Shown here in pieces: positions 1 to 21,527 of a stretch of DNA of 56,119 nucleotides. Location of the stretch: positions 1-56,119 of the forward strand of contig JAJRQY010000066.1 in assembly GCA_024280015.1 (NCBI GenBank), read 5' to 3'. The translations under genes were made by a program, and so were the position numbers. How positions within the stretch are numbered: the stretch's first letter is position 1; each line of letters starts with the position of its first letter. The notes below the pieces were generated by a model that was not told where the DNA came from, ran no database searches, and worked only from the letters and a program-made list of their open reading frames with translations. This DNA comes from Actinomycetes bacterium (GTDB taxonomy: Bacteria; Actinomycetota; Acidimicrobiia; Acidimicrobiales; SZUA-35).

Positions 1-254
1 AGCCATGTTGAGTCTGAGCGTGCCCGGTCCAGTTCGAAGACTCGTTCTTTTCGTCCTGCGGCGAAGATTGGGATGAGGGCGGCGTCGCGGCTTTCTTGAA
101 GCTTGTTTGCGGCCAGGATTTGGTCGCGGATTTCTTGGCGGGTGCAGTCTTGGGTGCTGTTGGTTTGTAGTTGGGTGAGGCTGTGGCGTATTTGGTTGAG
201 GAGTTCGCAGTGGGTGTTGGGTGGTTTGGTTTCTGGGTCCGCCGTTTGAATCAT
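1..254 (-). CDS. HNH endonuclease of the DUF222/13E12 class, N-terminal part only
   Basis: An open frame starts at ATG 254 and runs out of the window, giving 84 residues. The helical, polar N-terminus ends with the pattern DRARSDSTW, which resembles the start of the DUF222 domain found in actinobacterial HNH endonucleases of the 13E12 repeat family; the HNH domain would lie outside the window. The start is supported by a complete promoter 7 nt upstream with a LexA box inside it, so the gene should be DNA-damage induced. Family assignment rests on a short stretch and on the SOS context; the reading frame itself is convincing. Confidence 0.55.
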   Translation of the reverse strand, partial: MIQTADPETKPPNTHCELLNQIRHSLTQLQTNSTQDCTRQEIRDQILAANKLQESRDAALIPIFAAGRKERVFELDRARSDSTW

Positions 255-260
255 GTTTCC

Positions 261-289
261 AATATATCGAACAACTGTTCGGCTTTCAA
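261..289 (-). promoter_or_regulatory. SOS promoter with LexA box for the HNH gene
   Basis: Read on the minus strand: -35 TTGAAA (289-284), a 17-nt spacer, -10 TATATT (266-261), then 6 nt to the ATG at 254. The spacer holds CGAACAGTTGTTCG (268-281), which fits the actinobacterial SOS box CGAAC-N4-GTTCG exactly. LexA bound there would block RNA polymerase. The transcript would be leaderless. Confidence 0.85.
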
Positions 290-341
290 CCGTTGCTGGA
301 TATATTTAAAAGAAGGTAGATGTGAATCACTAGATACGAGG

Positions 342-857
342 TCATGCACTCCACATTTCGAGCAGGCGCTCGAGCGATCGGGTTGCCGCTTCCGCGTCTC
401 CCGTGGCCAGAACTTCAATCAGCAGTCCACGAGTCGCCGCAACACCGAGTCGCAGCTCATCGTCGTTGGTATCGACGCCCAGTCGATTGGCAATGTCAGA
501 TGACAACTCAACCCAGGGTTCGGTCAAGCCCTCTCCTCCGGTAATGGCGACACACTCGAAGAACAGGCGGACGAACGGCAACATCTCCGCTGAGGACACG
601 GTCTGCCACAACAGACGAACGAGGTCAGTTGGATCCTCAACCTCGTCTGCTAGTTGTAGCAACAAGTCACGTTGGGCTGACTCAGTCGCCTCAACAATGG
701 CTGACACCATCCCGGCCCTGGACCCAAAGTGATAGATGAGCATTCGATGACTTGACCCAATAGCCGTGGCCAACTGGCGCAGGCTTCGATCCGCCAGTCC
801 GCTGGCCGCAGCCTCCTCGACAATTCTGGCCAACAGCAGTGCCCGGGGATCTTCCAT
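342..857 (-). CDS. TetR/AcrR family transcriptional repressor
   Basis: This 171-aa protein has an N-terminal helix-turn-helix of TetR type (roughly residues 8-52, with SLRQLATAIGSSHRMLIYHFGS as the core, recognition helix ending in the typical YHFGS) and a helical ligand-binding C-terminus. It is divergent from an SRPBCC protein, and an 18-bp perfect palindrome lies between the two genes, so it most likely represses itself and the SRPBCC gene, and possibly the MMPL transporter beyond. A TAGGCT -10 box 7 nt before the ATG suggests a leaderless mRNA. The ligand is unknown. Confidence 0.9.
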   Translation of the reverse strand: MEDPRALLLARIVEEAAASGLADRSLRQLATAIGSSHRMLIYHFGSRAGMVSAIVEATESAQRDLLLQLADEVEDPTDLVRLLWQTVSSAEMLPFVRLFFECVAITGGEGLTEPWVELSSDIANRLGVDTNDDELRLGVAATRGLLIEVLATGDAEAATRSLERLLEMWSA

Positions 858-879
858 GTGGTCCAGCCTATCTCACCAC

Positions 880-897
880 GTGTACCATATGGTACAC
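880..897. promoter_or_regulatory. Perfect 18-bp palindrome, probable TetR operator
   Basis: GTGTACCATATGGTACAC reads identically on both strands. It lies 23 bp upstream of the tetR start, over the tetR -35 region, and 38 bp upstream of the probable SRPBCC start. Size, symmetry and position in a divergent tetR promoter region are those of a TetR-family operator. Confidence 0.85.
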
Positions 898-934
898 TTT
901 GCTCACTGGACCAGACGAAGTTGAGATCAAGATC

Positions 935-1357
935 GTGAGAATCGAGAACACAGTTACCATTGCCGCACCAATCGAGAAGGTCTGGGACATCACTCTGGAC
1001 GTCGAGAAGTGGCCCGACCACACCCCCACCATGACCTCCATCCAACGGCTGGATAGTGGCCCTCTCAAGGTCGGCTCGAAGGTTCAAATCAAGCAGCCAG
1101 GTCAGCGGGCCAAGACCTGGACCGTCACACTGGTGGATCCCCCGACAGGCTTCGCCTGGAGTACGAGGATGGCGGGCACGACCTTGACGGCGACACACCT
1201 GCTTACGCCAAGTCAGACGGGGACCACGAATTCCCTTCGGGTAGATCTTGAAGGGCCCCGCAAGGTTGCGCTCGGGGCCATGCTCCGACGCCCAATCCTG
1301 AGCGCGATTAGCAAAGAAAACGAAGGGCTGAAGGCGGCAGCCGAGGGCGCTAGCTGA
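935..1357 (+). CDS. SRPBCC (START/polyketide cyclase-like) family protein
   Basis: From GTG 935 the protein is 140 aa and begins MRIENTVTIAAPIEKVWDI, the standard first strand and helix of SRPBCC ligand-binding folds; IEKVWDITLDVEKWPDHTP is the conserved early helix region. The fold binds hydrophobic ligands in a deep cavity. The frame stays open upstream to 839, but that part overlaps the tetR gene and the palindromic operator, so the GTG is preferred; a TTG at 899 is possible. It is probably controlled by the divergent TetR protein. Substrate unknown. Confidence 0.8.
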   Translation: MRIENTVTIAAPIEKVWDITLDVEKWPDHTPTMTSIQRLDSGPLKVGSKVQIKQPGQRAKTWTVTLVDPPTGFAWSTRMAGTTLTATHLLTPSQTGTTNSLRVDLEGPRKVALGAMLRRPILSAISKENEGLKAAAEGAS

Positions 1358-1445
1358 GCACCGCCCAGTCAGGTCGAGCGATTCACCCAATCTGGCTGGG
1401 GCCTTGCTAACTGCCCGTACCCGTTTTGGCCTTGAACTCTGCGGA

Positions 1446-2855
1446 CTAACTGAAGTAGAACATCACGTCACCTCGGGTGAGCTCTCCTTGACGAATCTTG
1501 GCGAGCCAATATTCAAAACCCCCCGGCTCCGCGGTCCGTTCCATCACATTGGTATAGATGAGATGGACAAACTCCTCATTACTAAGCGAACCATACGTCA
1601 GTTGAAACTCCGCACTAGTGGAACCATCATCAGGAAAACCCAACCGCAACCACAGAACCGGTGCAGTCAGCGCCAGTAAGAACGCGGTAACACCAATGGC
1701 GTAGGCCCAGGCGTGCTTTGACACATGCTCCCCCCAACGCTGCCAGCCTCGACTGACTGGGGCTGGTCCAGTCGCTTGACCTCTTCGACGACCCAGATGG
1801 CCAACAGCCAGCCGGTTGATCCAGCCCCCGGCCAGGCCAAGGAAGGCGGGAAGGAGGGTGATGGAAGCAATCACCATGATCAAGACTGTGACCGAGATAG
1901 CCACCCCAGCGGCGGTCATGAAGGGAACCCCTGCCACCGAGAGTCCGAGAATGGCGATGACGACGGTGCCGCCGGCAAAGACAACGGCTTGGCCCGCGGT
2001 CGCAACCGCTCGACCAACAGACTCTTCCACTGTCATGCCGCGAGCCAGAAACTCACGATGACGGGTCACCAGGAACAAGGCGTAGTCAATGCCAACCCCG
2101 AGGCCAACCATGCTGGCCATTTGTGGGGCGAAGCTCGGAATCTCGATGACGTAGGTCACCAGTGACATCGATGTGACTCCAAGAGCCAGGCCAAACAGGC
2201 TCATGCCAACGGGTAGTCCCATGGCAATCAGGGAGCCGAAGGCCAGCAGCAGGATGACGACGGCTGCGATCAGCCCAAGCATCTCGCCCGTTCCTGTCTC
2301 GGACTCGGCAAACATGAAAAAGAGGCCACCGCTCAACTCGACCTGGAGCGAAGAATCGTCCCTGGCCTCAGCAGCCATCTCTTGCAGATTGGTCAGGTCA
2401 CCAGCATCCAGTTCTTCAACCACTGGATGCTGGATACGGATCAGGGCAATCCTCCCATCAGGAGAAACCAAGCTCTGGGCCACCGCTAGCTCGGGGTCCT
2501 CAATCAATACCCCGGCCGGATCGGTACTGCCCAGGACGTTGGGCAATCCCATCACCCTGGCTTGAACCGCAGCCAGCTCGGCTTGGGCTTGAGGCGAGTC
2601 GAAGAACGTCTCCTGCGGATCCAAGGGGGTGAGAACGACCAGCGAATCTAGACCGGCCGACTCTGACTTGGCGGTTGTCAATAAGGCCAGTGCTTCGGAT
2701 GAGTCAAGACCTGGAGCGTCGAAGGTGTCCTCGAGCTCACGCCCAAATGTCACGGACGAGCCAACGACAACAACCGTGACCGCCAGCCATATTCCAATGA
2801 CCGTCCACGGTCGGCGGGCCGCGAACCTCCCCAATCGGTACAACAGATGAGACAT
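1446..2855 (-). CDS. Half-length MMPL/RND-type transporter fused to a DUF4214-like tail
   Basis: The first 418 residues follow the N-terminal half of MMPL transporters: TM1 (about 18-37), an extracellular porter domain, TM2-TM6 with the GLGVGIDYALFLVTRHRE motif, and TM7. Just after TM7, where the second porter domain should start (LRLGFPDDGS), the sequence switches to about 51 residues of DUF4214 type (FVHLIYTNVMERTAEPGGFE, YWLAKIRQGELTRG) and stops at an amber codon. Normal family members are about 700 aa or more, so the second porter domain and TM8-12 are missing. AAAGGAAG is the ribosome binding site. It is divergent from a two-component system. Transport activity is doubtful. Confidence 0.8.
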   Translation of the reverse strand: MSHLLYRLGRFAARRPWTVIGIWLAVTVVVVGSSVTFGRELEDTFDAPGLDSSEALALLTTAKSESAGLDSLVVLTPLDPQETFFDSPQAQAELAAVQARVMGLPNVLGSTDPAGVLIEDPELAVAQSLVSPDGRIALIRIQHPVVEELDAGDLTNLQEMAAEARDDSSLQVELSGGLFFMFAESETGTGEMLGLIAAVVILLLAFGSLIAMGLPVGMSLFGLALGVTSMSLVTYVIEIPSFAPQMASMVGLGVGIDYALFLVTRHREFLARGMTVEESVGRAVATAGQAVVFAGGTVVIAILGLSVAGVPFMTAAGVAISVTVLIMVIASITLLPAFLGLAGGWINRLAVGHLGRRRGQATGPAPVSRGWQRWGEHVSKHAWAYAIGVTAFLLALTAPVLWLRLGFPDDGSTSAEFQLTYGSLSNEEFVHLIYTNVMERTAEPGGFEYWLAKIRQGELTRGDVMFYFS

Positions 2856-3044
2856 GCCGTCTTCCTTTTACTGGTTTCCTTGTTCATGACTGCTTCCGCG
2901 AGCATGAACGGTCGGATCCTCATTCTGAATGGGCAGTCCGTTAGGCGAATCAACGATTTGGCCAGTTCTGCCTCGTCCAAAGTCTCGATCTCGAGTTCCT
3001 ACTTTCGGCCGATGAATTCGGCCTAGTCGATTTCCTACAATGGC

Positions 3045-4259
3045 GTGGTGACCCCAACCTTCCTCCATTCCCTCCTCCAGGAGCCTGCTGTTCCAGACCC
3101 GCCCAAACGGGTATGGCGTGATTGGGCCATTCTCGGACTGCTGCTGACCAGCGCCGTTCTGGAGGGCATCTTCCGAACCAATCTGGTGTGGAGACCGTTC
3201 TCGCTGGTCTTTGGTGCGGCCCTGGTGGTTCCTCTGATGTGGCGGCGAACGAGTCCGCTGCTGATGATGCTCGTCACCTTCGGATCCATCTCCCTGGTTG
3301 AGATCGTTGCCCTACTCAACACCGACGAAGCCATCGGGCTCTACACCACGGCCAGCATCTTGCTCTTTCCCTATGCCGTGTTCCGCTGGGCTTCAGGGCG
3401 ACACATCGCCATTGGCCTGCCGCTCATGCTCATCATGTTCAGCATTGGGTCCATTCGGGACTATGCGAGTGTGGGCGAAACCATTGGCGCTCTCGTCTTC
3501 TTCTCGTTTCCGGCCCTGTTGGGTGCCCTGGTTCGCTATGCAACTACCGCACGGTTCCGACAAACCGATCAGATCAAGGCACTGGAACGGGAGCGGCTGG
3601 CGCGAGAGCTGCATGACACCGTTGCCCATCATGTCTCAGCCATCGTCATCCAAGCCCAAGCGGGAAGAGTGGTCGGACAGACCGATCCGAGCGCCGCTTT
3701 GAAGGCACTCGAAGTCATTGAGGACGAGGCAGCACGGACTCTGAGTGAGATGCGCCTCATGGTTGGAAGTCTTCGCGGCGACGAGGAAGCCGACTTTCGT
3801 CCCCAGCCCGTGCTGGCCGACATCAAGTCGATGGCGAGCACCATCGGCGGACCGGGACATGTACAGGTCGATCTGCTAGGCGACCTTGAAGCTCTACCTC
3901 CGACTATCGAGGCCACCATCTATCGACTGGCGCAGGAGTCGGCCACCAACGCTGTCCGCCACGCCCGAGGCTGGACACGCGTAACCATTACAGTCACCGG
4001 TGGCGCCGATGGTATCACCTTGCTGGTCACCGATGATGGCCAGCCCAGTTCTGCAACTCTGGACGTCAACGGATATGGGCTTATCGGAATGACAGAGCGA
4101 GCAGCCCTAGTCGGTGGCACGCTCACCTATGGACCCGACCAAGGATCAGGCTGGTTCGTCCGAGCCGAACTTCCCCGGGACCCAAGGGCACTGAGAGCAA
4201 CCGGAGCAATGAGCGCTGCTGGGGCGAACCGCGGGACCAAGCAGGTGACATCACGATGA
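3045..4259 (+). CDS. Sensor histidine kinase, HisKA_3 (NarX/DesK) type
   Basis: The protein has 404 aa: several N-terminal membrane helices (about residues 25-170), a HisKA_3 dimerisation domain with the phospho-accepting histidine in RLARELHDTVAHH (near residue 190), and a C-terminal HATPase_c domain with QESATNAVRHA, DDGQ and GYGLIGMTER boxes. The stop overlaps the start of the response regulator by ATGA, so the pair is translationally coupled. TACAAT at 3036-3041 lies 6 nt before GTG 3048, which may be the true leaderless start; GTG 3045 is the alternative. It is divergent from the MMPL gene, a plausible target. Confidence 0.93.
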   Translation: MVTPTFLHSLLQEPAVPDPPKRVWRDWAILGLLLTSAVLEGIFRTNLVWRPFSLVFGAALVVPLMWRRTSPLLMMLVTFGSISLVEIVALLNTDEAIGLYTTASILLFPYAVFRWASGRHIAIGLPLMLIMFSIGSIRDYASVGETIGALVFFSFPALLGALVRYATTARFRQTDQIKALERERLARELHDTVAHHVSAIVIQAQAGRVVGQTDPSAALKALEVIEDEAARTLSEMRLMVGSLRGDEEADFRPQPVLADIKSMASTIGGPGHVQVDLLGDLEALPPTIEATIYRLAQESATNAVRHARGWTRVTITVTGGADGITLLVTDDGQPSSATLDVNGYGLIGMTERAALVGGTLTYGPDQGSGWFVRAELPRDPRALRATGAMSAAGANRGTKQVTSR

Positions 4260-4912
4260 GCATTCGTGTTCTTCTCGCCGATGATCAGGAGCTGATTCGC
4301 ACGGGACTCCGGATGATCCTTGATGCCCAGCCCGGGATTGATGTGGTTGGTGAAGCCGCGGATGGGCGAGAAGCCGTCCAGCTAGCCCAGAGCCTGCGAC
4401 CCGATGTCTGCCTATTCGATATCCGGATGCCCAACATGGACGGCATCGAGGCCACCAAACTCTTGGCTGGACCAGACGTCGACGATCCAATGGCGGTGGT
4501 GGTCATCACCACCTTTGACCTGGATGAGTATGTGCACGGTGCGCTCAAGGCTGGGGCCCGGGGCTTCTTGCTCAAGGATGCCGGCCCCGAGCTCTTGGTC
4601 CAGGCGATCGATTCCGCCGCTAACGGCGATGCCCTTATCGCTCCAAGCGTCACCGTTCGCCTGCTGGCCCAATTCTGCAGCGCCAGCGAGTCACTGGAGC
4701 CAGTGCAACCAATTGAGGCGTTAACCGAACGAGAAGAAGAAGTTCTGCTCACCGTGGCCAGCGGACTGACCAATACTGAAATTGCCGGGCAGTTGCACAT
4801 CAGCCTGAGCACAGTCAAGACTCACCTGACCCACCTCATGACCAAGCTGGCCGCCCGCAATCGGGTCGAGATCGCCATGTGGGCCTACGAGACTGGGCGA
4901 ATCAAGACCTAA
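4256..4912 (+). CDS. Response regulator, NarL/LuxR family
   Basis: A 218-aa regulator with a receiver domain (acidic D9-D10, phospho-acceptor D55 in LFDIRMPNMDG, conserved K in LLKDAG) and a C-terminal LuxR helix-turn-helix (about residues 150-210; LTEREEEVLLTVASGLTNTE). It is the cognate partner of the kinase whose 3' end it overlaps by 4 nt. It likely acts as a dimeric transcription factor; the target genes cannot be read from the sequence. Confidence 0.95.
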   Translation: MSIRVLLADDQELIRTGLRMILDAQPGIDVVGEAADGREAVQLAQSLRPDVCLFDIRMPNMDGIEATKLLAGPDVDDPMAVVVITTFDLDEYVHGALKAGARGFLLKDAGPELLVQAIDSAANGDALIAPSVTVRLLAQFCSASESLEPVQPIEALTEREEEVLLTVASGLTNTEIAGQLHISLSTVKTHLTHLMTKLAARNRVEIAMWAYETGRIKT

Positions 4913-11626: not shown

Positions 11627-11914
11627 ATGGCCATACCACTACGGAACTCGAACGACTTTGGAACGCTAGTACGAGACCAACGGCTCGCAGCGGGTCTTAC
11701 GCTACCTCAACTGGCGGAACAAGCCGAAGTTTCGCGTCGCTGGCTCGCCAGCCTCGAATCAGGCAGTCCAGGAGCAAGTATTGCCAAGGTCATGCGAACA
11801 CTCGACATTCTTGGAATCGCCATCTCTGCCGACATCGGACCACCAAGCAGCATCACCTCATCACCGGCTACCAGCCTGGATGAGATCCTCAGAACACACA
11901 CCAAGCAACCATGA
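11627..11914 (+). CDS. hipB: HipB-type antitoxin, XRE helix-turn-helix
   Basis: From ATG 11627 (GAGGAG 5-6 nt upstream) the protein is 95 aa. The HTH is FGTLVRDQRLAAGLTLPQLA plus EVSRRWLASLESGSPGASIA (about residues 11-62), the usual HipB helix-turn-helix with a short C-terminal tail. The stop overlaps the hipA start by ATGA. It should bind the inverted repeat just upstream and hold HipA inactive. Confidence 0.9.
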   Translation: MAIPLRNSNDFGTLVRDQRLAAGLTLPQLAEQAEVSRRWLASLESGSPGASIAKVMRTLDILGIAISADIGPPSSITSSPATSLDEILRTHTKQP

Positions 11915-13173
11915 CGGAGCTTGTTGTTCGTCATGTCGACGGCGTGGTGGGCACCATCACACGGTCAGCGGGAAAGGCATCCTTCAGCTACTACGACGAG
12001 TGGCGCGCTCGCCCCCACCCGACGCCACTTTCGACGTCAATGCCCGTGTCTGCTCGCGTGCATCCGCAGCACGTCATTGAGCCATTCTTGTGGAACATGC
12101 TGCCCGACAACGACCGCGTCTTGGAACGATGGGGACGCCAGTTCGCGGTGACGACCTCACATCCATACGGGCTGATCGAACATGTTGGTGCAGACTTGCC
12201 TGGGGCGATGCAAGTCGTGACGACAGAAACGGCCGCCCGGGACCCACTGGACAACCGCACCGTCGACTGGCTCACTGATCAAGATGTGGCCGAGCTCCTC
12301 ACTGCGGTTCGGGCGGACAACACAGCTTGGATCAAGCCCGGCGTGGCCGGACAGTGGAGCCTGGCGGGAGCCCAGCCAAAGATCGCCCTCCTCTTCGATG
12401 CCGAGCACGGCTGGGGTCGACCCTATGGTGCAACTCCCACTACTCACATTCTCAAACCAGCAGCAGAAGGCCTCGACGATCATGACCTGAACGAGCATCT
12501 CTGCCTCGCTGCGGCGCGTCGGCTTGGCCTCACAACTGCCTCGTCGGAGGTGAAATGGTTCGGAGAAGAACGGGCCATCGTCGTTTCGCGATACGACCGT
12601 GTTGGCACCGAACGCGTCCACCAAGAAGACCTTTGCCAGGCTCTCGGTGTCCACCCCGCTCTCAAGTATCAAAACGAGGGCGGACCGACCCCATCTGACA
12701 TCGCCAGCCTGTTCCGTGCTGTGATGTCTAGTAGAACCGCCAGTGACGCCACCAACCGATTCGTTGAGGCGCTTCTCTTCAACTGGCTTATTGGCGGCAC
12801 CGATGCCCACGCGAAGAACTATTCGTTGCTACTGGCTGGCGCCGATGTCCGCCTCGCTCCTTTGTATGACATCGCCAGCGCTTTCCCTTACGATGATGTG
12901 TACTTCCCCAAAGCCAAGTCAGCCATGAAGATCGGTGCCCACTACAAGATCACTTCGGTCACACAGAACAGCTGGAAAGAACTGGCAGCACAGACACAGA
13001 CCGACTCAGGTTGGGTAATCGCACGGGGCCAGGAGCTAGCCGCTCAGGTCGTTGAGGCTTTCCACGAAGCCAGTGCCGACCCGGCCGTATCGGCCTTCGA
13101 AAGCACACTGCCAGAGCTCCTCGTTCGGCGCGTCGAAACCCACGCAGCCGAATGCAACACAAAGCTTGCCTAG
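11911..13173 (+). CDS. hipA: HipA-type serine/threonine kinase toxin
   Basis: The 420-aa protein shows the complete HipA kinase set: glycine-rich loop WSLAGAQPKIALL (149-161), E195 in DHDLNEHLCLAAARRLGL, catalytic GGTDAHAKN (295-303) with D298 and N303, and the metal-binding LYDIASAF (D320). HipA kinases phosphorylate translation factors such as glutamyl-tRNA synthetase and cause growth arrest; which substrate applies here is unknown. Length and motifs suggest an active enzyme. It ends the toxin island and is convergent with the long vWA operon. Confidence 0.93.
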   Translation: MTELVVRHVDGVVGTITRSAGKASFSYYDEWRARPHPTPLSTSMPVSARVHPQHVIEPFLWNMLPDNDRVLERWGRQFAVTTSHPYGLIEHVGADLPGAMQVVTTETAARDPLDNRTVDWLTDQDVAELLTAVRADNTAWIKPGVAGQWSLAGAQPKIALLFDAEHGWGRPYGATPTTHILKPAAEGLDDHDLNEHLCLAAARRLGLTTASSEVKWFGEERAIVVSRYDRVGTERVHQEDLCQALGVHPALKYQNEGGPTPSDIASLFRAVMSSRTASDATNRFVEALLFNWLIGGTDAHAKNYSLLLAGADVRLAPLYDIASAFPYDDVYFPKAKSAMKIGAHYKITSVTQNSWKELAAQTQTDSGWVIARGQELAAQVVEAFHEASADPAVSAFESTLPELLVRRVETHAAECNTKLA

Positions 13174-17925: not shown

Positions 17926-18797
17926 CGAATGATTCCTGCTGTTCGGGCCGGGCCAAGCACGGTGCTTTCCAGATCGTCGGTGGTGAGAACTCGCAGGTAG
18001 GAGCCGCCTCGGGAGCGAACCCGGTCGGCGACATCGTCGGCCCAGCGATGGGCCAGTTCGCGATAGTCCTCCAACGCTGAGGCTGACAGGGACACTTCGA
18101 GCTTGGCTCCAGTTTCGTCGTCAATCAGTTCGAGGTCACCGGTTAGTGGAGGATGTCCGGCCGAGGGATCGAGGTCGGTTGGATCCAACACATGGACGAC
18201 CACAAAGTCGCCGCGCCGAGCGGGCAGACGATCAAGACCTGCCTCCCAGTCCGCCGTCAACAGGTCCGACAGGACGACGGTCAAACCCGCTGGTCCGGGC
18301 TGGTTGAGGACCATGCTCGTCGCCTGGGTGAACGGGGTCTCTCCCCCGGCTTGGAGGCCCGATAGGTGGTTGAACAGGGTGGCCGTCGCGGTTCGTCCCC
18401 GGTAGCGGGGACCTGGCTGGTTCACCGGGAAGGTGTGCACAGTCACAATGTCGCGCCGAATCAGGGCAGAGAACCCTAAGGCTCCGGCAATCTCGGCCGC
18501 CCGCTTGAGTTTGGGTCCGGCCATGGAGCCGCTGGTATCAACCAGGAGTCGAAGCGTCAGATCGTCTTCGGCGTCATACAGGCGGACCAGAAGCTTGTCC
18601 AAACGGGCCAAGGCGTTGAGGTCCAGTCGTCGCAAGTCATCCCCCGGGTAATAGTCGCGGAAGTCAGCGAAGTCGAGAGAGGAGCCGTGGCGAGGTGAGC
18701 GATGCTCGCCCGAAAGACCGCCAGCCAGACGGCGACGAGTACGCAGTTGGAGGCGCTCCAATCGGGCCAGTAGGCGGGCCGGTAGAAGTTCGCTCAC
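17922..18797 (-). CDS. DUF58 domain protein
   Basis: This 291-aa soluble protein carries the DUF58 signature: GSSLDFADFRDYYPGDDLRR, then LARLDKLLVRLYDAEDDLTL, then a vWA-like MIDAS LLVDTSGSM. DUF58 proteins are regularly encoded beside MoxR ATPases and membrane vWA proteins. Here the start overlaps the moxR stop (GTGA/ATGA type overlap) and the stop overlaps the start of the giant vWA protein, so the three are one transcription unit and probably one complex. Confidence 0.92.
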   Translation of the reverse strand: MSELLPARLLARLERLQLRTRRRLAGGLSGEHRSPRHGSSLDFADFRDYYPGDDLRRLDLNALARLDKLLVRLYDAEDDLTLRLLVDTSGSMAGPKLKRAAEIAGALGFSALIRRDIVTVHTFPVNQPGPRYRGRTATATLFNHLSGLQAGGETPFTQATSMVLNQPGPAGLTVVLSDLLTADWEAGLDRLPARRGDFVVVHVLDPTDLDPSAGHPPLTGDLELIDDETGAKLEVSLSASALEDYRELAHRWADDVADRVRSRGGSYLRVLTTDDLESTVLGPARTAGIIR

Positions 18798-19789
18798 GGA
18801 GCGCCCCGGATACCCGAGGTCGGCTCACCAACGGTGTCCAACACCGTGGCCACCAGATCATCGGCAGTCCGGCCATCAGCAGTGGCTTCATAACCAACGA
18901 CCAGGCGGTGACGCATGGCGGCAATGGCAACACTTCGCACATCCTCAATGGAAACCGATGGCCTGCCGTCCATAATTGCCCGCGCCTTGCCCGCCAAGAT
19001 CATGGACTGCACACCACGCGGTGAAGCACCGAAACGCACATACTTCTGGACTGCCTCGGGGGCGGTCTCCTGCTCAGGGTGAGTGGCGATGACCAGGTCA
19101 ACCGCATGGCGAGTCACGTGGTCGGGAACCGGAACCTCGCGGGTGAGGGCAATCATGTCTCGCAGGGTGTCGCCGTCACATACCGGGCTGGCTTCCGGAC
19201 TGACGACGCTGGTCGTGCGCTCGACAATGGCCACCAGTTCATCGGCTGAGGGGAATGGCACGATCGCTTTGAGCAAGAAGCGATCAAGCTGGGCTTCGGG
19301 CAAGGGATAGGTGCCTTCCATCTCCAGCGGGTTCTGGGTGGCCATCACCAGGAACGGTCGGGGCAGCAGACGAGTCTCACCGGCAACAGTGACGGCCCGT
19401 TCCTGCATCGCTTCCAGCATGGCTGCCTGGGTCTTGGGGGTTGCCCGGTTGACCTCATCGGCTAGGACCAGATTGGACATGATGGGCCCTGGGTTGAACC
19501 GCAACTCTCGCTCTCCTTCGGCCGACTGATGCAGGATCTGGGTGCCGACAATGTCGGCTGGCATCAGGTCAGGGGTGAATTGGATACGCGACCAGGGGAT
19601 GTCCACCGTGTCGGCCAGGGTCTTGAGCAGCATGGTCTTGCCCAAACCGGGCACGCCTTCCAGCAGGACATGTCCTTCGGCCAGCAGGCAGATCAGGACT
19701 TCGGAGATGAGTTGTCGCTGTCCAACAATGACCTTGCCGATCTCGTTGGTGATGGCTTCGGCCCGTTGTGCGCATTCTTCGGGAGTCAT
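18794..19789 (-). CDS. MoxR-type AAA+ ATPase
   Basis: The 331-aa protein from ATG 19789 has Walker A GVPGLGKT (45-52), Walker B LVLADEVNRA, sensor I ATQNP and the MoxR helix-2 region EGTYPLPEAQLDRFLL. MoxR ATPases act as chaperones that remodel or insert metal into vWA proteins. The reading frame continues open far upstream into the low-complexity gene, but homology and a plausible start place the N-terminus here. It is followed by overlapping DUF58 and vWA genes. Confidence 0.93.
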   Translation of the reverse strand: MTPEECAQRAEAITNEIGKVIVGQRQLISEVLICLLAEGHVLLEGVPGLGKTMLLKTLADTVDIPWSRIQFTPDLMPADIVGTQILHQSAEGERELRFNPGPIMSNLVLADEVNRATPKTQAAMLEAMQERAVTVAGETRLLPRPFLVMATQNPLEMEGTYPLPEAQLDRFLLKAIVPFPSADELVAIVERTTSVVSPEASPVCDGDTLRDMIALTREVPVPDHVTRHAVDLVIATHPEQETAPEAVQKYVRFGASPRGVQSMILAGKARAIMDGRPSVSIEDVRSVAIAAMRHRLVVGYEATADGRTADDLVATVLDTVGEPTSGIRGAP

Positions 19790-19820
19790 GAGGCTTCTTT
19801 CTGAAAGACTTGATACTGAC

Positions 19821-19888
19821 GGCTTGTTGCTGGGAATGGCTTGTTGCTGGGAATGGCTTGTTGCTAGGAATGGCTTATTGCGGGGAAT
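19821..19888. repeat. Four 17-bp tandem repeats upstream of moxR
   Basis: Units of GGCTTGTTGCTGGGAAT start at 19821, 19838, 19855 and 19872. The first two are identical, the third differs by one base and the fourth by two. The array fills most of the 130-bp gap between the coiled-coil protein and moxR, where the ribosome binding or promoter region of moxR would lie. Confidence 0.9.
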
Positions 19889-19919
19889 GCTGAAGTACTC
19901 GTTGCGGGGTGAGTGGGCC

Positions 19920-21527
19920 CTACCGGGTGAGCAGGTCGAAATAGTCGCCAACCAGTTCGACCTGACTGGGGGCCAGCTGACCCCGCTCGGCGGTCGCTGT
20001 TGCGCGGGTGGCATAGTCATCAACGATCTCTGACAGGGGGACTCGAACAGGGCCGGCGGTTGTTGGTCCGTCACCCTTGCCAACAACTTCACCCGGGGCA
20101 CCACTGGCGTCACCACCAAGGTCCACTTCATCGCCTGGGTTGAGTGAGAGGGGGTCAACAATGGTTTGGGTTCCTGGGTCAATTCGAGGTTGATCGGTTC
20201 CACCAGGAGTTCCGACACCTCCCTGTCCCGAACCGGTACCACCGCTGGCTCCTCCAACCTGACCCTGGGCACCGTCACCGCCACCCTGTCCGCCACTTCC
20301 CGCACCTTGGCCTTGGCCTTGGCCTTGACCTTCACCTTCGCCCTGACCCTGACCCTGACCTTCGCCCTCGCCCTGACCTTCGCCTTCACCCTGGCCTTCG
20401 CCCTCGCCCTCGCCCTGACCTTCGCCTTCACCCTCGCCCTGGCCTTCGCCTTCACCCTGACCGGTGCCCTTTTTCACATCGCCTTCGGCCCCAGCCACCG
20501 CGTCAAGAGCTTGATCGGTCGCTTCGCCAGCAGCGAGGGATTCTTGCCCATCGGCCTGAGCCTGAGCAGCGTCGCCAAGGGCCGCCTGGGCCCCAGCAAT
20601 GTCGCCAGCTTGCAAAGCTGCTGCCGCCTCACTTAAGGCGGCGGCAGCCGCCGGATTGCCTGCCGCCTGAGTCTCAGCCAGATCTTCCAAGCGATCAGCC
20701 AAGGCCGCCAACTCATCAGCATCAGCTTCGTCCAACGTTTCGGCTAGCTCCGTCAGCTGTTCCTCCGCTGTGCCGCCAGCAGCCAAGGGATTTTCAGCCA
20801 GGTTGCGTTCCAATCCGGTCACCGCGGCCTGACGAGAAGCGAAATCGTCCGGCTTGGATTCCTGCAGTAATTCACGCGCTTCGGCCAAGAGTTCTTCCGC
20901 CGTTGCCAGATCATCAGTCTGGCGCAACTCCTCGGCAATGTCTCGCAGCTCCTCGGCCACGGCTTCGGTTGCCGGATCCTCGGCCAGCACCTCGGCTTGG
21001 TCATCAAGGACTTCGGCGGCATCGTCGATGATGGCCCGAATCTCGGCTTGTTCAGCCCGAATCTCATCCTGTGGATTGGGTCCAAAGGCTAGACCAACCG
21101 CCGCGACTCCAAGCACTCCGGCTACGGCCCAACGACGCCAGCTATCGGGAACAGGAGCGGCCTCCTTCGGCGCTGCTCCCAGCGACAGCTCCTCCGCCCG
21201 TGAACGAATTCGTTCACCAAAGGGACCATCTAGATCCTGGAACTGCAGGGCAGCTCCAAAGGCATCCTTGGTGCCAAGGCCACGATCAGCCGAACGGGCC
21301 ACCAGCGGGATGGGGAGTCGCTGGATCACTCCAAACAAGACAATCCCAACCACAGAGCCAACGACGAGTCCTAGGGCCAACCGCTCCGGCCAGCCGTAAG
21401 GCCGGACAAAGCCAATGACAACGATCAGCAAGGCCGCTCCGGCTACCAGCGGGGCCACCAAGGAGGCAGTGGCCAGAACCCAGATCATCCGCAGCCGCAA
21501 ACGAAGCTGGTGAAGAAAGCCAATCAT
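19920..21527 (-). CDS. Membrane protein with coiled-coil and Gly-Gln-Glu repeat region
   Basis: The 535-aa protein has two N-terminal TM helices (about 15-60), a third near 132-150, a long Glu/Ala-rich helical coiled coil (about 155-345) and a low-complexity stretch of GQGE/GEGE repeats (about 355-420). A Gly-rich linker and a short folded end (VRVPLSEIVDDYATRATATA) follow. Part of the layout resembles large membrane proteins of the DUF4175 kind, but I would not name it. Gene position between the ABC exporter genes and moxR suggests a structural role in the same envelope complex. The antisense strand of the repeat is also open, which is a by-product of the simple sequence. Confidence 0.8.
   Translation of the reverse strand: MIGFLHQLRLRLRMIWVLATASLVAPLVAGAALLIVVIGFVRPYGWPERLALGLVVGSVVGIVLFGVIQRLPIPLVARSADRGLGTKDAFGAALQFQDLDGPFGERIRSRAEELSLGAAPKEAAPVPDSWRRWAVAGVLGVAAVGLAFGPNPQDEIRAEQAEIRAIIDDAAEVLDDQAEVLAEDPATEAVAEELRDIAEELRQTDDLATAEELLAEARELLQESKPDDFASRQAAVTGLERNLAENPLAAGGTAEEQLTELAETLDEADADELAALADRLEDLAETQAAGNPAAAAALSEAAAALQAGDIAGAQAALGDAAQAQADGQESLAAGEATDQALDAVAGAEGDVKKGTGQGEGEGQGEGEGEGQGEGEGEGQGEGEGQGEGEGQGQGQGEGEGQGQGQGQGAGSGGQGGGDGAQGQVGGASGGTGSGQGGVGTPGGTDQPRIDPGTQTIVDPLSLNPGDEVDLGGDASGAPGEVVGKGDGPTTAGPVRVPLSEIVDDYATRATATAERGQLAPSQVELVGDYFDLLTR

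Follow-up and report, generated by a model that had tools for sequence, protein, structure and literature searches.

A putative decayed gene fusion with an amber stop, joining half of an MMPL exporter to a DUF4214 module in an Acidimicrobiales genome

Exporters of the MMPL family (PF03176) belong to the RND superfamily, and a working exporter of this kind is made of two halves, TM1-6 and TM7-12. For MmpL3, part of a published account (PMC11481577) places the proton relay at Asp-Tyr pairs where both TM bundles meet. In segmented filamentous bacteria, DUF4214 (PF13946) has been described as a domain that likely serves in surface anchoring (PMC12780176), and a second report mentions DUF4214 surface proteins that are thought to form an S-layer-anchored enzyme (PMC11970703).

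Here we describe a locus in which sequences of these two types meet in one reading frame. The window, the whole stretch of DNA analyzed, is 56,119 nucleotides of an Acidimicrobiales genome, and it holds a 469-codon open frame (1449-2855, minus strand) with Pfam matches to both families. Our analyses indicated that an MMPL gene and a DUF4214 gene were probably joined here in frame, giving a chimera that has since decayed and is closed by an amber stop. The locus thus looks like a case of ordinary gene decay and not like a protein of a new kind.

Architecture of the frame and its junction

The MMPL family matched residues 51-380 of the frame with 179.7 bits, above the cut-off of 20.5, and DUF4214 matched residues 413-469, up to the TAG, with 52.8 bits (cut-off 23.2, also passed). 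When the profile search was read through the TAG, the DUF4214 match, now at window 1425-1619 and interrupted by a single TAG, took in profile positions 6-71 of 72 and reached 70.3 bits; because this is more than the 52.8 bits found up to the stop, the sequence past the TAG contributes to the match. An earlier note on this DNA had proposed that MMPL gives way to DUF4214 with an in-frame TAG, and the Pfam matches and the read-through search bore this out.

The exporter part, residues 1-412 (1620..2855, minus strand), was supported by the Pfam match and by 19 aligned rows from relatives. Based on the general MMPL topology, we take it to comprise TM1, the first outside domain, TM2-6, the cytosolic loop and TM7; a simple scan found six hydrophobic peaks in the frame where seven TM segments are expected. 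The switch to DUF4214 occurs in frame at 1620/1619, where the window reads LGFPDDGSTSAEF and all eight of the relatives' proteins compared continue as MMPL (LGFPDDGSLPE..., LGFPDEGALPE... and similar). The fusion reported in the earlier note thus stands, with its position corrected from 1601 to 1620/1619 and the DUF4214-type residues before the stop amounting to 57 (residues 413-469) rather than 51.

The DUF4214 part (1449..1619, minus strand) follows TM7 and represents a DUF4214 gene's final module; the DUF4214 matches, a tree of modules and the predicted fold of its kin identify it as helices 2-5 of the six predicted in the kin. A premature TAG (1446..1448, minus strand) falls, by codon comparison and alignment column, at the position of kin-module residue 68, a Q. 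Past it, the stretch 1407..1445 (minus strand) holds the rest of the module as compared with the kin. Its 12 codons, SAEFKAKTGTGS, run up to the original stop (TAG, 1407-1409) and correspond to the final helix predicted in the kin. The earlier observation that the frame beyond 1446-1448 has the usual DUF4214 ending was confirmed, as the closest two kin end in FSQSEEFQIKTGTF followed by a stop.

The exporter half, its relatives and its neighbors

The search for relatives of the MMPL half covered 61 genomes (the window's own and 60 relatives, with the window's own row excluded) and gave 19 rows in 18 genomes that were 55-69% identical along the whole, or almost the whole, of residues 1-413, a count that excludes pieces in G059, G016, G031 and G001. 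Eighteen of the 19 rows stopped at query residue 412-415, and the remaining one (G008:C2) stopped at 383, the edge of its contig. The frames behind 17 of the rows were at least 740 aa long; the other two (G052, 615 aa, and G008:C2, 396 aa) were cut by contig ends. The gene is patchy, with a row of at least 55% identity over nearly the whole half in 16 of the 36 other family genomes, only pieces at such identity in 3, and none seen in 17.

A 72-residue query across the junction had matches in 145 of 395 class genomes, the window's own included. The window's own match scored 158.4 bits, and the next best, at 78.6 bits, stopped at the junction (query residue 43, residue 413 of the frame); some weaker rows extended to query residues 44-59, in MMPL-length frames. 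Among the matches listed, none spanned the junction in the 394 other class genomes; a true copy of the junction would be expected to rank first among them. A relative with an identical 469-aa protein, a finding that the earlier note named as refuting a fusion, was looked for among the 60 relatives and in the matches listed for the 394 class genomes and was not found. With a relative's second half as query, no loose second half was detected elsewhere in the window's own genome, only paralogues and weak cross-matches; the good matches were two long MMPL genes with frames of 804 and 819 aa, at 59% and 54% identity.

The frame has no second TM bundle. It keeps one Asp-Tyr pair, DY257-258, the sole DY in its MMPL half; the second-half pair (GLSMDYEVF), present in five of five orthologues examined, is gone. 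As one of the two relay pairs has been lost, the predicted protein should not export as a monomer, and the chimeric product is, judged from its sequence, most likely not a working exporter.

What is left of the exporter is in good order. The MMPL half is free of frameshifts through its 412 codons, and 4 of 93 otherwise invariant positions are altered, compared with 0-3 in 16 of 18 orthologues; the remaining two orthologues had 7 of 96 (L031) and 11 of 100 (L051, 8 of these being X letters). Relaxed selection on the half was considered and set aside, as four altered positions are slightly above most orthologues and not decisive. The module had a dN of 0.17-0.19 at saturated dS, and this saturation of synonymous sites precluded a dN/dS estimate for the fusion's own branch. 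A well-kept MMPL half together with this dN implies that the damage is recent or that some function is left, two states that the conservation figures do not separate.

On the right of the junction lie a sensor kinase gene (3045-4259, plus strand) and a response regulator gene (4256-4912, plus strand), both divergent from the frame. Kinase and/or regulator matches adjoin MMPL at 12 of 21 relatives' loci (at least 55% identity) and are absent at the other nine; based on these neighbors, it is probably the sequence to the right of the junction that has kept its ancestral location. On the left lie a Polyketide_cyc2 (SRPBCC) gene identified by Pfam (935..1357, plus strand), immediately beside the module, and a gene for a TetR-type regulator (342..857, minus strand) whose TetR_N match, at 22.3 bits, narrowly misses the cut-off of 24. 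In a search of 39 family genomes neither had a match in G001, a sister species and the other genome of the genus that was compared, and the best matches were 43% identical for TetR (by E-value, in G003) and 46% for SRPBCC (in G014). The two genes (window 342-1357) are also adjacent at G003:C25 and G036:C93 (loci L097 and L098), which indicates that they travel as a pair. They were not seen beside MMPL in the relatives' loci compared, and a custom DUF4214 profile found no module in 22 relatives' loci, not all of which contain MMPL. To the eye, the genes 3' of MMPL appeared variable across the relatives' loci, and the left side is thus uninformative on the event.

The contig begins within a repeat (1..290, minus strand) that is 95% identical to C10:460-749 of the same genome; by eye, we presume that a gene of HNH/DUF222 type ends there. 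Scanning 1-3100 for repeats revealed four pairs of 14-17 nt, all of them away from the junction, and the promoter and terminator counts near the gene were about the means of shuffled sequence (1 vs 0.5 and 1 vs 1.7, respectively). Farther along the window, at 18794-21527, two long overlapping frames run across a GEGQ-type low-complexity stretch, and the listed start of the MoxR-like gene there is, by eye, probably far too early.

The MMPL gene of G001, a draft genome itself open to assembly or sequence error, appears broken. At G001:C181 (L063) 3024-4636, residues about 201-329, 330-544 and 640-735 in the relatives' numbering lie in three different frames, and residues 1-200 and about 545-640 are missing. 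A response-regulator piece directly adjoins it, 61% identical and restricted to residues 123-217. From these deletions and frameshifts the gene looks like a pseudogene, which suggests an ongoing loss of the exporter in the genus, from an ancestor whose gene still had its second half. The locus is apparently being lost by different routes within the genus, with the first half affected in G001 and the second half in the window.

The DUF4214 module and its amber stop

The window's own genome gave 100 DUF4214 rows, 52 of which were placed in 39 open frames, the window's included. In 15 of the 39 the frame ends within 15 residues of the match (the window's frame and a broken frame on C103 among them). 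A tree of 83 modules (the window's, 45 own modules of at least 60 aa and 37 taken from six relatives' closest loci) placed the window's module as sister to own C21 and G001:C20 with support of 100/93, in a tree with few columns, 43 of 80 forks open and a bootstrap that had not settled. Its end branch was 0.17, against a median of 0.37. This grouping indicates that the module came from a gene of the window's genus, and over residues 412-469 it is 74% and 76% identical to C21 and the G001 counterpart, respectively. No near-identical donor was found in 37 genomes, where the best matches at the DNA level were own C21 (68%) and, elsewhere, G001:C20 (72%); we speculate that the direct donor gene may have been consumed by the rearrangement. 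The C21 frame itself is 667 aa long (L065 3265-5268), compared with an open frame of just 193 residues, the C-terminal end, in its G001 counterpart (L064 2926-3507), and in the last 162 bases compared between the two, which extend beyond the stop, there are about 6 differences.

The intact kin module of C21 (79 residues) was predicted as six helices with a pLDDT of 93.7. In the alignment the window's module starts at C21 residue 11 and the TAG falls at residue 68, so that the kin helices at 2-10 and 70-76 have no DUF4214 counterpart in the frame. Judged against this predicted fold, a complete six-helix module would not be present between the junction and the TAG.

DUF4214 is a much-shuffled module in this genome, occurring across the 39 frames on at least nine kinds of unrelated proteins, a spread that suggests a common surface-attachment role. 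Seventeen of the 38 other frames were scanned with Pfam, and nine had a second family over cut-off and eight had none; the partners were CAP, NHL, beta-helix, DUF1501, YkuD, NAGPA, 5'-nucleotidase, Reprolysin_3 and DUF3048. In a simple hydropathy scan, 31 of the 38 had a single hydrophobic segment, close to the frame's N-terminus, and seven had none (two of these are truncated by contig ends); no frame had more than one. A polytopic carrier is therefore out of pattern, and by these predictions the window's frame is the only one among the genome's 39 DUF4214 frames. From MMPL topology, a module placed after TM7 would presumably face the cell exterior.

The position of the amber stop is a sense codon in all 44 other own modules aligned, a set restricted to modules of at least 60 aa and without the C103 module that is broken by TGA. 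Both closest kin, C21 and G001:C20, have CAA (Q) there. The earlier note had suggested that an E codon became TAG, and E is indeed the commonest residue in 43 other own modules (E 19, D 10, A 4, N 3, Q 3, others 4); with CAA in the nearest two relatives, however, the lost residue is more likely to have been Q than E.

TAG ends 25 of the 39 own DUF4214 frames (24 of 38 without the window's). No PylS was found over cut-off in the genome (best 29.3 bits against 178.15), in a search whose controls gave a signal in 13 of 14 control genomes and passed the cut-off in one. Together, the common use of TAG to end DUF4214 frames and the lack of a PylS over cut-off make recoding unlikely, and a nonsense change is the simple reading of the TAG. 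A second DUF4214 gene with an in-frame stop, in this case TGA, was seen on C103 at about 11650-11960 (L125 5481-5927), at a position where an intact neighboring copy (C103:7496-7702) has W.

Proposed origin of the probable chimera and comparison with known systems

Based on these observations, we propose the following course of events. In the ancestor, an MMPL exporter gene of full length would have been adjacent to a divergent two-component system. A rearrangement or a deletion, with one break just past the codons of TM7 and the other within the last module of a C21-type DUF4214 gene, would then have joined the two in frame, removing the second outside domain, TM8-12 and the second Asp-Tyr pair. 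A nonsense change, probably later, would have placed a TAG 12 codons ahead of the original stop. If any protein is made from this gene, it would be half a transporter, of seven TM segments, with an outside DUF4214 module that has neither its first nor its last helix. Among the options raised in the earlier note, a decayed chimera is the best supported, as the relatives' genes are long, the G001 copy is pseudogene-like and the module is from the same genus. Against decay, the MMPL half shows little damage, the two genes meet in frame and close to where a module begins or ends, and the gene is patchy in the family.

It is unlikely, though well worth bearing in mind, that the locus is an artefact of assembly or binning in which two unrelated stretches were joined near 1620, or in which the TAG is a base error. 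The junction lies 1.6 kb from a contig end that is itself within a repeat, the TetR and SRPBCC genes to its left had no match in G001 and were not seen beside MMPL in the relatives' loci, and a single genome of the species stands behind the junction. The assembly join offered as an option in the earlier note thus keeps some probability. Against it, apart from the repeat at 1-290, no second near-identical copy of the sequence on either side of the junction was found in the genome (the next matches being short and 68-78% identical), and none of the 12-mers in 1595-1635 occurs again, either in the window or in the 32 own loci compared, which are part of the genome. In addition, the module comes from the same genus, the exporter's second half was not found loose in the genome, and a join on the same strand and in frame would arise by chance in about one case in six. 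Nothing favors a misjoin, and we continue to regard a decayed chimera as the probable state of this locus.

The 469-codon open frame and the well-kept MMPL half could also be read as a new, functional protein, a seven-TM half-size MMPL, perhaps acting as an oligomer or a membrane anchor, with DUF4214 outside and the TAG trimming its tail. TM7 would presumably put the module outside, where the other DUF4214 proteins of the genome, most of them with a single N-terminal hydrophobic segment and with enzymes of several kinds among their partners, appear to lie. We consider this improbable, however, because no second case was seen among the matches listed for the 394 other class genomes, the module's first and last helices have no DUF4214 counterpart, the G001 gene looks broken, and one Asp-Tyr pair is missing from a relay that, in the part of the MmpL3 account cited above (PMC11481577), involves both bundles. 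The narrower proposal of a real, expressed swap, in which the MMPL half anchors and displays a surface-binding DUF4214 module whose end the amber stop trims, is very improbable. Least credible, to the point that we give it hardly any weight, is suppression or recoding of the TAG, by which the protein would extend to 1410 and keep the whole end of its module. The frame past the stop does still match DUF4214 (the gain in bits noted above), but a young nonsense change would look alike, general suppression would lengthen many proteins in a genome where TAG is a usual stop of DUF4214 frames, and no PylS passed the cut-off; the read-through suggested in the earlier note is accordingly poorly supported.

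A decayed chimera matters for annotation, as automated gene calling would list this locus as an MMPL-family transporter of 469 aa despite the missing half. If the protein were functional after all, it would represent a new way of tethering DUF4214 to the membrane.

The locus can be set beside four kinds of known system. The MMPL exporters of Acidimicrobiales and relatives, MmpL3-like members of the RND superfamily, share its residues 1-412 at 55-69% identity and, at the 12 loci noted above, its divergent two-component neighbors; they differ in possessing the second half, about 340 residues, that the window's gene is without. The DUF4214 gene of C21, in which DUF4214 is the sole Pfam match, and its G001 counterpart share the ending found past the stop; in contrast to theirs, the window's carrier is a predicted polytopic membrane protein and its module is shortened on both sides. 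The phycobilisome linker domains appear to be remote relatives of DUF4214, with weak profile matches (best E 0.00023 for 9k9w; 3nph, E 0.0089) and with linkers or chains of phycobilisomes as the first five Foldseek matches (TM by query 0.60-0.68 over 73-77 columns, E 0.13-0.53), although with 12-21% identity in the first 20 matches they are other proteins in another place. Finally, the locus has in common with the interrupted coding sequences of bacteria an in-frame stop within a recognizable gene, and it adds to this an in-frame chimera.
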